Positions 5,268-28,924 of a stretch of DNA of 33,104 nucleotides are shown here, piece by piece. This stretch comes from Parcubacteria group bacterium. GTDB lineage: Bacteria > Patescibacteriota > Minisyncoccia > Phycocordibacterales > CALRBT01. The first letter of the stretch is position 1, and the number at the start of each line of letters is the position of its first letter. The notes beneath the pieces were generated by a model. That model was not told the DNA's origin. It did not search any database and saw nothing but the letters and a program-made list of their open reading frames with translations. Location of the stretch: assembly GCA_943354475.1 (NCBI GenBank), contig CALRBT010000011.1:1-33104 (forward strand), given 5' to 3'. Position numbers and translations under genes: made by a program.

Positions 5268-5311
5268 AACACAAAACCCCCTCCTTGCTCGCAAGGAGGG
5301 GGTTTTGTGTT
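5268..5311. terminator. Bidirectional intrinsic terminator
   Basis: AACACAAAACCCCCTCCTTG-CTCG-CAAGGAGGGGGTTTTGTGTT. Confidence 0.9.
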
Positions 5312-5462: not shown

Positions 5463-5897
5463 ATGCTCATAGGTGAATACACACATGCAATAGATGACAA
5501 AAACCGGCTCTCCGTGCCGGCTAAGTTTCGTAAAGAACTTGGAGAGAAGATCGTGATTACTCCAGGATTAGATAATTGTCTGTTTGCATATACGCTCACT
5601 GAATGGGGTAAGGTTTCAGAAAAACTCTCAGGACTTTCCATGCTTCAGGCTGATACTAGAAGTTTTAATCGATTTATGTTTGCCGGAGCAGTTGAAGTTG
5701 AGGTAGATGCTAATGGACGCATTCTGATTCCGGAATTTCTCAAAAAATTTGCAGACCTCAAGGGAAAAGTAGTAATTACCGGTATTCATTCACGAGTAGA
5801 GCTCTGGAATGAAAAAGCTTGGATTGATTACAAGAAGCGGATTGAAAAACAAGCTGATCAGTTGGCAGAGAAGCTTGGTGAAATTGGCGTATTTTAA
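5463..5897 (+). CDS. mraZ: Division/cell wall cluster transcriptional repressor MraZ
   Basis: MLIGEYTHAIDDKNRLSVPAKFRKEL...VDANGRILIPEFLKKFADLKGKVVITG. Confidence 0.97.
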   Translation: MLIGEYTHAIDDKNRLSVPAKFRKELGEKIVITPGLDNCLFAYTLTEWGKVSEKLSGLSMLQADTRSFNRFMFAGAVEVEVDANGRILIPEFLKKFADLKGKVVITGIHSRVELWNEKAWIDYKKRIEKQADQLAEKLGEIGVF

Positions 5898-5898
5898 A

Positions 5899-6025
5899 TT
5901 AGAACATATGTATCTGGCAAATTTCTTTGTTAAAATCATCGGTTTCTCCCTCACCATACATTCAAGTATGGTTCAGTCCAAACCTCGATTTTGCCTCGAA
6001 CTTTACTCAGATACCTACGTTCTAA
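5899..6025. ncRNA. Structured 127-nt element, copy 1 (mraZ-rsmH intergenic)
   Basis: TTAGAACATATGTATCTG...CAGATACCTACGTTCTAA outer stem, apical hairpin CCATAC-attcaa-GTATGG; aligns without gaps to 9011-9137. Confidence 0.75.
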
Positions 6026-6032
6026 ACACAAT

Positions 6033-6971
6033 ATGATTACTTCAGCAAAACCCGTCATTTCAAAAATAAAACCAAGCGCTCACAAGAGCGTACTACTTGA
6101 AGCTGTTCTTGATGGATTGATGCTTAAAGAAAATGATGTGGTTGTTGATGGAACACTTGGAGGATGTGGTCACAGCCTCTCGATATGTGCAAAGCTTGGA
6201 TCAGATGGAGTACTCATTGGACTCGATCAAGATAGTGCGGTAATCAATCGGGCAAAAAAAGCATTTGAAGGGGTAAAACCAAAAGTTATTCTCCACATCG
6301 CTAATTTTCGAATACTTGATGAAGTTGTTCGTGGGGAGAAAATTACCAAGGTGGACAAAATCCTTCTTGATCTTGGTTTTAGTTCAGATCAACTCGATTA
6401 TTCAGGAAGGGGATTAAGTTTTCTCAGGGACGAACCACTACTCATGACATTAACCGATGAGGTAAACCAAAACCGATTTACTGCACGAGACATTTTAAAT
6501 ACCTGGGAAGAGGAGAATATCGCAACAATTATTAAAGAATATGGAGAAGAGAGCTTTGCAAAGAAAATCGCAAAAGCGATAGTGAAATCAAGGATTAACA
6601 AATCAATTGAGACGACGTTTGATTTGGTTGAAATAATCAAATCAGCAACTCCATCATGGTATCATCACCGAAAAACTCACCCTGCCACAAAAACTTTTCA
6701 AGCACTACGGATTACGGTTAATGACGAAATAGAGGCACTCAAAGAAGGACTTCTTAATGGTTTTAACGTGTTGGCACCAAATGGACGAATGGCAGTCATC
6801 TCGTTCCACAGTCTTGAGGATCGGCTCGTTAAACACTTCTTTAGAGAAAGGGTCCTGCTTGAGCAAGGGAAAATTATTACCAAGAAGCCAATCATTCCAG
6901 AGAGACTAGAGATACAGGAGAATCCCAGATCAAGAAGTGCCAAACTACGAATTATTGAAAAAACTAACTAA
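6033..6971 (+). CDS. rsmH: 16S rRNA (cytosine(1402)-N(4))-methyltransferase
   Basis: HKSVLLEAVLDGLMLKENDVVVDGTLGGCGHS... and ISFHSLEDRLVKHFFRE; likely start MITSAKP at 6033. Confidence 0.95.
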   Translation: MITSAKPVISKIKPSAHKSVLLEAVLDGLMLKENDVVVDGTLGGCGHSLSICAKLGSDGVLIGLDQDSAVINRAKKAFEGVKPKVILHIANFRILDEVVRGEKITKVDKILLDLGFSSDQLDYSGRGLSFLRDEPLLMTLTDEVNQNRFTARDILNTWEEENIATIIKEYGEESFAKKIAKAIVKSRINKSIETTFDLVEIIKSATPSWYHHRKTHPATKTFQALRITVNDEIEALKEGLLNGFNVLAPNGRMAVISFHSLEDRLVKHFFRERVLLEQGKIITKKPIIPERLEIQENPRSRSAKLRIIEKTN

Positions 6972-7301: not shown

Positions 7302-9014
7302 ATGAAGCCCCACTTACGAAGTAGGCTAAGAATAATTTCTATTACACTCTGTGCCGTAGCATTTATCTTTGTTATTGCGCTTTATTACCATCAGATTATC
7401 AGAGGAGATGTGTACAAGGATAAGGCAAATCATCAGTACATTAGGCCAAGTAAGGTCTTTGACCGAGGTGACATTTTCTTAACCCAAAAAGATGGAACAC
7501 TCATTACTGGCGCCGGCATCAAATCTGGCTTTGACCTTATTATCAATCCAAAAATTTTAGAAAATCCAGAAGACGCTTATAAAAAAATCAACGCAATTGT
7601 ACCCATTGATCGTGAGACATTCCTTGCTAAGAGTGCTAAAACCAATGATGTCTATGAAGAAATTAGTAAACGCTTGGAAGAGGTGGTCGCAACAAAGATT
7701 GAAGCTCTTGGAATTAAAGGAGTTAGTCTCTATAAATCTCGTTGGCGTTTTTATCCAGGCTCCTCTCTTGCCGCCCATGCGCTCGGTATCGTTAGTTTTA
7801 GTGGTAACACCCTTTCAGGAAGCTATGGACTCGAGCGTTACTATAACGACATATTGAGTCGAAACGATGATGGAACCTTCGCTAACTTTTTTGCCGAGGT
7901 ATTCTCCAATGTAAATAAAACTGTCTTCAAAGAAGGAGAACGCAGTCAAGGGGATATCGTCCTTTCAATTGAGCCTGCAGTACAGGCAAACCTTGAAGCG
8001 ACAATTGCTGAAATTCAACACACCTATAGTTCCGTACTCACTGGTGGGATTATTATTAATCCAACAAATGGCGAGATATACGCTCTGGCTATTAATCCAA
8101 CATTTGATCTTAATAATTTTTCAAAAGAAAAAAATGCAGCTGTCTTCTCAAATAATCTTGTTGAGCGTGTCTATGAAATGGGTTCTATTGTAAAGCCTCT
8201 TACTATTGCGGCAGGAATTGATGATGGGGTGATTACGGCAGAGACTACCTATGAGGACAAGGGATTTCTGATTCTTAACGGTAAGAAAATTTCAAATTAT
8301 GATGGTAAGGGGCGCGGCGTGATAAATATGCAAACAGTCTTGAATAATTCGCTCAATACAGGAGCGGCATTCGTTGTAACAAAGATGGGCAACGAAAAAT
8401 TTTCAAAATATATGCGTGCCTATGGACTCGGTGAGGAGACAGGCATTGATTTACCCAACGAAACACATGGATTGGTTGATAAAATTCTTGATTCACCTCG
8501 AGATGTTGAACACGCGACAGCTTCCTTTGGGCAGGGGATTGCGCTTACTCCGATTGAGACCGTCAGGGCACTCTCAGTCTTGGCAAATGGAGGTCATTTG
8601 ATTACTCCGCATCTTGTTCGTCAAACAAAATATACGTTAGGTATTACCAAAGACACAGTCTATGGCGACAGTAAGCAGGTGATAAAACCGGAGACCTCGA
8701 AGGAGATTGGTCGTATGCTTACTACAGTCGTAGACAAGGCTCTTTTGGGCGGAAAAATAAAGATGGAGCATTATAGTATTGCGGCAAAGACGGGGACTGC
8801 TCAAATTGCAAATCCTGCAGATGGCGGGTATTATAAGGACAGGTTCTTGCACTCATTCTTTGGTTACTTCCCGGTTAATAATCCAAAGTTTTTGATATTT
8901 TTGTATACGATAGAACCAAAGGGTGTTGAGTATGCGTCACACACATTGACGATGCCGTTTAGTGAGTTGACTAAGTTTATTATTAACTACTATCAGCTCC
9001 CTCCCGATAGATAG
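7302..9014 (+). CDS. ftsI: Penicillin-binding protein / peptidoglycan D,D-transpeptidase FtsI
   Basis: N-terminal TM, dimerisation region, transpeptidase motifs (EMGSIVKPLT, AAKTGTAQIA). Confidence 0.9.
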   Translation: MKPHLRSRLRIISITLCAVAFIFVIALYYHQIIRGDVYKDKANHQYIRPSKVFDRGDIFLTQKDGTLITGAGIKSGFDLIINPKILENPEDAYKKINAIVPIDRETFLAKSAKTNDVYEEISKRLEEVVATKIEALGIKGVSLYKSRWRFYPGSSLAAHALGIVSFSGNTLSGSYGLERYYNDILSRNDDGTFANFFAEVFSNVNKTVFKEGERSQGDIVLSIEPAVQANLEATIAEIQHTYSSVLTGGIIINPTNGEIYALAINPTFDLNNFSKEKNAAVFSNNLVERVYEMGSIVKPLTIAAGIDDGVITAETTYEDKGFLILNGKKISNYDGKGRGVINMQTVLNNSLNTGAAFVVTKMGNEKFSKYMRAYGLGEETGIDLPNETHGLVDKILDSPRDVEHATASFGQGIALTPIETVRALSVLANGGHLITPHLVRQTKYTLGITKDTVYGDSKQVIKPETSKEIGRMLTTVVDKALLGGKIKMEHYSIAAKTGTAQIANPADGGYYKDRFLHSFFGYFPVNNPKFLIFLYTIEPKGVEYASHTLTMPFSELTKFIINYYQLPPDR

Positions 9015-9137
9015 AACCCATGGATTTGGCGAATTTCGTTGTTGAAATCGTCGGTTTCTCCCTCACCATACGTTTAAGTATGGCTCAGTCGCAACCTAGA
9101 TTTCGCCTAGAACTCCGCTCAAATCCATGGGTTCTAT
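9011..9137. ncRNA. Structured 127-nt element, copy 2 (ftsI-murF intergenic)
   Basis: Perfect 18-bp outer stem ATAGAACCCATGGATTTG/CAAATCCATGGGTTCTAT, apical hairpin CCATAC-gtttaa-GTATGG. Confidence 0.75.
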
Positions 9138-9198: not shown

Positions 9199-10506
9199 AT
9201 GACCTTCCTTAAAGACACACTCAAGTTTATTGTTATATTCATTTTAACAATTGAGGCGCGACTAGTGCTGAAAAAGTATAAACCAAGAATCATCGCAATA
9301 TCAGGAAGTGTAGGCAAAACCTCGACCAAAGATGCTATATATACAGTACTTGAGAAAGAATTCTTTGTGCGCAAGAGCGACAAGAGCTTCAATGGAGATA
9401 TTGGAGTACCACTTACTATTTTAGGACTTTATAATGGTTGGTTTAGTCTTTCAATCTGGCTAAAAAATATAATCAAAGGACTACTCCTCATTATCTTCAA
9501 CGATCCCTATCCAAAAGTATTAGTCCTTGAAATAGGAGCGGATAAACCGAGAGAAATTGAAAAGATTGTTTCTTGGCTCAAACCAAATATTGCAATCGGT
9601 ACACGATTTCCAAAAATTCCAGTGCACGTCGAGTTCTTTTCTTCTCCAGAGGCGGTAAATGATGAAGATGCACTGGTGCTCAAAGCAGTAGTAAAAGGGG
9701 GAACGGCAATTTTAAATTATGATGATCTTGAAATGATGGAGTACAGAAAAGATCTCTCTCAAGAGATAGTAACCTATGGGATGAATGAAGGAGCAGACGT
9801 CAGGGGTAGTAATCCACACACGGTTTATGATAACGAAGGAAGACCAATAGGGATTGGCTTTACTGTGACTCATAAAGAAGAAAGTAAAGAAGTGATACTA
9901 AAAGGCGCACTTGGACTAACACACGTCTACCCACTCCTAGGCGCCATTGCTGTTGGTATCAAAGAGGGGATTCCACTTGAGATGATTACTCGGCGACTAG
10001 AAACACACACGAGTCCTCCTGGGAGAATGCATCTACTCGATGGTATCAAAGGAAGTTTGATTATTGACGATACTTACAACGCCTCTCCTGTGGCGATGGA
10101 ACAAGCAATAAGAACCATGGATGAGTTAGAACAAAAAGGTGGGCGAAAGATTTTTGCACTTGGTGACATGCTTGAGCTTGGTAGCTTTACCTTAAAGGAG
10201 CATACCCAAGCAGGGGAGAGGGTGGCAAAGGTCGCTGATATTCTGGTTATAGTTGGTGTTAGATCACGCAATATCGCTCAAGGAGCAATCTCTGCGGGAA
10301 TGCCAGAGTCATCTATCATGCAATTTGACGATTCTCGGAAGGCAGGAGAATATCTCAAGAATACAATTTCAAAAGGGGACACTGTGCTCATCAAAGGTTC
10401 GCAGTCAATTCGTATGGAACGCGCTGTGGAGATGGTAATGGCTCACCCTGAGGATAAAGAGAGTCTGTTGGTACGTCAGGATCCTGTGTGGCTGGGGATG
10501 AAGTAA
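9199..10506 (+). CDS. murF: UDP-N-acetylmuramoyl-tripeptide--D-alanyl-D-alanine ligase (Mur ligase family)
   Basis: SGSVGKTSTKDAI P-loop, IGVPLTILGL, DDTYNASPVAMEQAI. Confidence 0.88.
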   Translation: MTFLKDTLKFIVIFILTIEARLVLKKYKPRIIAISGSVGKTSTKDAIYTVLEKEFFVRKSDKSFNGDIGVPLTILGLYNGWFSLSIWLKNIIKGLLLIIFNDPYPKVLVLEIGADKPREIEKIVSWLKPNIAIGTRFPKIPVHVEFFSSPEAVNDEDALVLKAVVKGGTAILNYDDLEMMEYRKDLSQEIVTYGMNEGADVRGSNPHTVYDNEGRPIGIGFTVTHKEESKEVILKGALGLTHVYPLLGAIAVGIKEGIPLEMITRRLETHTSPPGRMHLLDGIKGSLIIDDTYNASPVAMEQAIRTMDELEQKGGRKIFALGDMLELGSFTLKEHTQAGERVAKVADILVIVGVRSRNIAQGAISAGMPESSIMQFDDSRKAGEYLKNTISKGDTVLIKGSQSIRMERAVEMVMAHPEDKESLLVRQDPVWLGMK

Positions 10507-25138: not shown

Positions 25139-25185
25139 TTTCAAAACAAAAACCTCTCATGCTGTGAGAGGTTTTTGTTTTGAAA
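25139..25185. terminator. Bidirectional terminator
   Basis: TTTCAAAACAAAAACCTCTCA-tgc-TGTGAGAGGTTTTTGTTTTGAAA. Confidence 0.88.
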
Positions 25186-27033: not shown

Positions 27034-27070
27034 AAACAAAAACATCTCACAATGTGAGATGTTTTTGTTT
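27034..27070. terminator. Bidirectional terminator
   Basis: AAACAAAAACATCTCAC-aat-GTGAGATGTTTTTGTTT. Confidence 0.87.
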
Positions 27071-27088
27071 TAGGCTACTGTGTTTAAG

Positions 27089-28786: not shown

Positions 28787-28792
28787 AAAATA

Positions 28793-28834
28793 AAGAAACA
28801 CCCCTGAAAGCAAAGCTTTCAGGGGTGTTTCTTT
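28793..28834 (+). terminator. Intrinsic terminator
   Basis: AAAGAAACACCCCTGAAAGC-aaa-GCTTTCAGGGGTGTTTCTTT-like stem. Confidence 0.88.
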
Positions 28835-28860
28835 ATACTAAGGAATAAAAGAGAAAACAA

Positions 28861-28890
28861 AAAAGACTCGGATTGCTCCGAGTCTTTTTT
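28861..28890. terminator. Intrinsic terminator (csp side)
   Basis: AAAAGACTCGGA-ttgc-TCCGAGTCTTTTTT. Confidence 0.85.
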
Positions 28891-28924
28891 GTTTTGTTCT
28901 GTAAGTTCCAGAACCTAACCTGAG

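Follow-up and report, generated by a model that had tools for sequence, protein, structure and literature searches.

Two 127-nt imperfect palindromes lie at gene ends in a 33,104-nt stretch of DNA from a Parcubacteria group bacterium (contig CALRBT010000011.1; hereafter the window), one just 3′ of the mraZ stop codon and the other across the stop codon of ftsI. What is a hairpin of constant length doing at the stop codons of two genes? The initial annotation described a repeated, fixed-length element with co-varying stems, took its placement to argue against random insertion, and suggested an RNA switch. The features that bear on this question are as follows.

5463..5897, + strand: mraZ, upstream of copy 1 (Pfam MraZ, 2.1e-34)
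5899..6025, + strand: element copy 1, just 3′ of the mraZ stop (covariance model, 128.2 bits, E 2.2e-30)
6030..6971, + strand: rsmH/mraW, downstream of copy 1, its start placed directly after the element (Pfam Methyltransf_5, 2.9e-97)
7302..9014, + strand: ftsI-type transpeptidase gene, upstream of copy 2 (Pfam)
9011..9137, + strand: element copy 2, a 127-nt imperfect palindrome over the ftsI stop codon (covariance model R1, 136.7 bits, E 1.3e-32)
9011..9028, + strand: left outer arm of copy 2, including the ftsI stop TAG (arm sequence and fold)
9028..9044, + strand: left conserved core of copy 2, GGCGAATTTCGTTGTTG (family alignments)
9066..9083, + strand: tip hairpin of copy 2, CCATAC-gtttaa-GTATGG
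9104..9120, + strand: right conserved core of copy 2, CGCCTAGAACTCCGCTC (family alignments)
9120..9137, + strand: right outer arm of copy 2, perfect complement of 9011-9028 (arm sequence and fold)
9199..10506, + strand: murF-type Mur ligase gene, downstream of copy 2 (Pfam)

Copy 1 (5900-6024) and copy 2 share 81% identity over 125 ungapped nucleotides. The 18-bp arms of copy 2, ATAGAACCCATGGATTTG (9011-9028) and CAAATCCATGGGTTCTAT (9120-9137), pair perfectly, as had been annotated; copy 1 falls short of this, with 16/18 positions of its outer stem paired. Placement of both copies at the stop of the upstream gene is likewise borne out: the ftsI TAG occupies 9012-9014, within the first bases of copy 2, and the mraZ TAA ends at 5897, immediately before copy 1. 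Compared with dinucleotide shuffles, copy 2 folds with z = -6.9 on the plus strand and -9.3 on the minus strand, and copy 1 with z = -6.5. Both are far more stable than these controls, none of 200 shuffles equalling either copy.

The window holds other hairpins. Perfect 21-28 bp inverted repeats with loops of 2-3 nt occupy intergenic positions 2688-2745, 28790-28836 and 5268-5311; they are unlike the 125-nt family and resemble very long terminator-like hairpins. Three similar intergenic hairpins of the form AAACAAAAACNTCTCA...TGTGAGANGTTTTTGTTTT (25144-25181, 27034-27071 and 28858-28895) look like a repeated bidirectional terminator design.

Copies 1 and 2 belong to an apparently uncatalogued mobile family of ∼125-nt imperfect palindromes in Patescibacteria. 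Searching the host genome at the DNA level returned eight sites, and a covariance model trained on ten copies identified ∼35 copies in this 786-kb genome, with the family present in 66/197 genomes of the order and 29/287 genomes across the phylum. A pattern scan of GTDB contigs yielded 28 stretches from Parcubacteria, Taylorbacteria, Kaiserbacteria, one Moraniibacteriota and other bins. Copies measure ∼122-127 nt nearly everywhere, so the annotated fixed length holds for the family at large. Conserved segments comprise a left-hand GGCGMATTTCKTYGTTG, a right-hand CGCCTMGAACTKCATCC and a tip of the CGTAC/GTACG type; the remaining stems are variable. Copy number is uneven within a single genus (38, 16, 6 and 5 copies), and this patchy occurrence indicates that the family is dispensable. 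Searches of Rfam gave no family match at gathering thresholds or at E<1 (the chance-level matches all lay outside the element), phage collections gave no match, and searches of the literature outside subscription journals turned up no Patescibacteria MITE or comparable structured element.

Several relatives depart from the standard length. A ∼217-nt form in Kaiserbacteria CSBr16_134 has the same left core and an extended middle, and occurs three times in one 4-kb contig end (L059 544-760, 2529-2746 and 3059-3276) and again in L068. Genome G363 carries many matches of 91-101 nt, near-identical ∼97-nt hairpins that align to the inner model only and are perhaps a related but shorter mobile palindrome. 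In the host-genome copies L004/L095 and L089 the right arm is broken by ∼30-45 nt (...GACCTACTGGGTCGAA...-like) and then resumes, which we read as a shared or parallel insertion into the element.

The wider family bears directly on the proposed switch, an RNA with two mutually exclusive pairings. Its basis was the co-change of direct repeats, CCTCGA in copy 1 and CCTAGA in copy 2, and this co-change is real between the two window copies. It is no rule of the family: L072 (CCTCGATTCCGCCTAGAAC) and L074 (CCTCAATTTCGCCTAGAAC) break it, and it is missing from most of the other copies. The 4-bp TCGA/CTAG repeats needed for the alternative pairing are not conserved, one long hairpin is common to all copies, and this single hairpin dominates every alignment fold. 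A switch is thus very improbable; what the window contains is two members of a real and unusually widespread family of mobile palindromes.

How the family spreads is evident from its younger members. Age was scored for 180 copies by the match of their ends to the consensus, with young copies matching at least 11/13 positions and old copies fewer than 8/13. Young copies are bounded by TAGGACTTACGC terminal inverted repeats and, like MITEs in general, the copies are short (122-127 nt) and non-coding. Exact 5-bp flanking repeats accompany 23/70 end-intact copies, defined here as copies with ends reading TAGGACTT at 14/16 positions or better, against a mean of 0.59 and a maximum of 5 after shuffling of flanks; in the same copies, repeats of other lengths gave no signal. 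Because these young relatives carry both inverted-repeat ends and 5-bp target-site duplications, the family inserts as a mobile element, spreading as a non-autonomous MITE-type DNA transposon of the cut-and-paste kind. The annotated argument against random insertion therefore survives only in part: insertion is evident among young relatives, and it is the stop-codon placement that exceeds chance. Both window copies are old, and reading of their flanks revealed no 5-bp target duplication beside either.

A pattern search of three genomes found no autonomous 1-2 kb partner with the same ends, only short elements. Genomes G023, G138 and G179 carry other short elements (about 130, 166, 204 and 302 nt) with TAGGACNTACGC ends, which we interpret as a multi-family MITE burst whose transposase is missing. 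G138 also holds a ∼660-bp stretch bounded by TAGGACCTACGC and ACGTACGTCCTA (L029 1458-2118, identical to L050 942-1602) within which a 125-nt copy is nested beside a membrane-like ORF of 70 aa; this stretch may be a larger element that has the same ends and carries cargo. Element pairs standing back to back or less than 200 nt apart (L303 2001-2256, L266 1877-2128 and L159 1001-1325) suggest tandem insertion.

Where copies persist is far from random. Among the 180 copies, 70 start between -2 and 7 nt from the stop codon of a gene on the same strand and 3 do so relative to a stop on the opposite strand (p = 1e-17); the host genome by itself gives 17/30 against 2/30. This anchoring differs sharply with age: 48/88 old copies start at a same-strand stop and 0/88 at an opposite-strand stop, as compared with 6/50 and 1/50 of young copies (Fisher p = 6e-7, young versus old). 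The copies that remain after their end sequences have decayed are thus largely those that start at a same-strand stop codon. Since the placement appears with age, retention or selection seems a better account of it than a preference at insertion. By eye, stop placement recurs in other classes, for example in G298, G418, G345 and G416. The upstream genes include mraZ, ftsI, groES, rnc, clpB, tuf (EF-Tu), rpsI and ssb in the host genome, and gyrA, gyrB, nusG, rpoC, secY, ftsZ, fusA and the RNase Y gene in genus g6; mraZ and ftsI were named by Pfam, some g6 genes by NCBIfam and the others by eye from their translations. The core-gene look of this list should be read against the fact that reduced genomes consist mostly of core genes.

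Old copies have also kept their structure. Their arms match the consensus end at just 5.8/13 positions on average and each other at 15.1/18, and they retain the core motifs and a length of 125±2 nt. In genus g6, 88% of alignment cells are paired and 611 show two-sided changes; the score for covariation reaches 0.648 as compared with 0.150 for shuffled and 0.08-0.12 for slid alignments, figures flattered by an alignment that was fitted to the model. The co-varying stems of the initial annotation are upheld by these counts. Coordinated two-sided changes have kept old arms complementary around conserved cores at constant length, and the family supplies natural compensatory-mutation data in an amount that few bacterial repeats offer. 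The pairing is nearly strict Watson-Crick, lacking the G·U excess expected for an mRNA helix.

Such strict pairing is also the outcome expected of arm-to-arm copying, and could be explained without selection on function. Copies would be selfish MITE debris that survives best after stop codons, where it is harmless, and template-switch correction at replication would maintain complementarity. The target duplications, the inverted-repeat ends and the occurrence of other short elements (about 130-300 nt) with the same ends agree with this account. However, a 70:3 orientation bias near stops is unexpected for a palindrome resting in a neutral spot, old copies still show constant length and conserved core positions that are unpaired, and template switching would erase conserved mismatches too. 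We consider debris of this kind an unlikely explanation.

Relatives offer a further view of retention. In one genus, copies occur at the same stop codons of nusG, rpoC, gyrA, gyrB, ftsZ, secY and the RNase Y gene. Most copies at shared stops are no more similar in sequence than random copies, which weakens the argument for descent in place: either stem sequence has reached saturation under a preserved structure, or fresh elements have entered these sites again. There are clear exceptions; pairs such as L283/L289, and L303/L302, which by eye differ by paired substitutions, favour in-place descent for some copies.

Which strand acts is a separate matter. In 125/129 old copies (p = 2e-22) and in 47/50 young ones, the minus-strand fold is more stable by ∼10 kcal/mol. 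G·U:A·C ratios over predicted pairs are 172:44, 84:53 and 252:104 on the minus strand, and 76:96, 72:58 and 179:134 on the plus strand. A helix acting in mRNA is expected to show G·U well above A·C, as is seen for the tRNA acceptor stems in these loci (12:1). The sense-strand outer stem of old copies gives 21:75, an A·C excess to which a few columns resembling conserved mismatches contribute. On the minus strand, purines predominate in the conserved internal loops. These strand data favour a bottom-strand fold, and the acting strand may be either one.

Because the strand evidence misfits a simple sense-RNA hairpin, we retain some probability for function of the bottom strand. Here, the molecule would be the folded template strand, either single-stranded DNA for a structure-specific recombinase or transposase, by a logic like that of integron attC sites, or an antisense RNA, and the sense orientation at gene ends would follow from how the site is used. 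The length and gene-end position of the family resemble attC sites and fit this proposal, as do the fold energies, pair ratios and purine-rich loops. Against it, none of the 197 genomes of the order has an integron integrase above the TIGR02249 cut-off (weaker matches also occur in 13/14 control genomes), and attC-like heptamer boxes were not seen on inspection against the heptamer consensus, the ends reading TAGGACTT or, in old copies, being arbitrary. Likewise, the adjacent genes are core genes in conserved operons and not cassette arrays, -10-like sites show no excess on the minus strand beside the element, and part of the A·C excess stems from the few apparently conserved mismatch columns. 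Function of the bottom strand is thus possible but doubtful. Tentatively, and as a single joint claim, one may further picture a phylum-wide Patescibacteria class at the 3′ ends of core genes (rpoC, nusG, gyrA/B, ftsZ and tuf) in which selection keeps a folded bottom strand of fixed length and leaves stem sequence free; members of the class would be either antisense structural RNAs or single-stranded DNA sites that are recognised by their structure and have no relation to integrons.

The reading that we prefer, and regard as probable, is that a MITE-type hairpin repeat has been retained as a cis-acting gene-3′-end element by exaptation. Old, retained copies would be the exapted elements. Because the hairpin begins at the stop codon, a terminating ribosome may cover and open the left arm and free the right arm, and what happens to the transcript, or to the gene that follows, could thereby be coupled to upstream translation. 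We infer that the molecular action would be mRNA decay, translation coupling or an activity of bottom-strand DNA or RNA. Several observations pull against exaptation: elements may insert repeatedly at favoured stop codons, as the dissimilarity of most shared-stop copies allows; occurrence is patchy even within one genus; the sense strand is not G·U-rich and the antisense strand folds better; and the three genomes searched yielded no autonomous partner. Patescibacteria have tiny genomes with few described mobile elements or regulatory RNAs, and retention at core-gene stops across the phylum, if it holds, would show how such genomes acquire 3′-end control elements.

Among known systems, integron attC sites (VCR) are likewise imperfect palindromes of similar length that directly follow a gene stop in fixed orientation, are poorly conserved in sequence and fold better on the bottom strand, as judged for our family from computed energies and G·U:A·C ratios only. 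Integron attC sites recombine as folded bottom strands (PMC2727003). The family differs in its association with core genes instead of cassettes, and the attC identity was rejected on the integrase search described above. RUP, Correia/NEMIS and Nezha MITEs are also short, non-coding elements whose inverted-repeat ends have TA termini, and RUP and Correia share target duplications with the family; its duplication is 5 bp, while the reported RUP target is TA-type. Unlike other bacterial MITEs, the family has a core conserved across a phylum, old copies that keep their structure, and no identified parent insertion sequence. REP/REPIN sequences are palindromic, extragenic, hairpin-forming and close to gene ends, but our family has 5-bp target duplications, which are not expected of Y1 transposition, and lacks a consistent GTAG/CGTC tag. 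The REPIN/RAYT candidate was set aside: the Y1 transposase PF01797 is absent from the host genome (G000) at E<=1e-3. PF01797 is present in 46/66 element-positive and 69/131 element-negative genomes. The ERIC/IRU repeats of enterobacteria resemble the family in length (127 bp), long imperfect hairpin, TA termini and mobile character, and in their location at gene 3′ ends or between genes. Our family nonetheless belongs to a different phylum, blastn (word size 11) against 20,395 E. coli records found nothing that matches copy 2, and the family is strictly stop-anchored in one orientation, with an outer stem that is rewritten freely yet stays complementary. At Yersinia gene 3′ ends, action of the kind that we propose has been reported for the 127-bp ERIC repeats.
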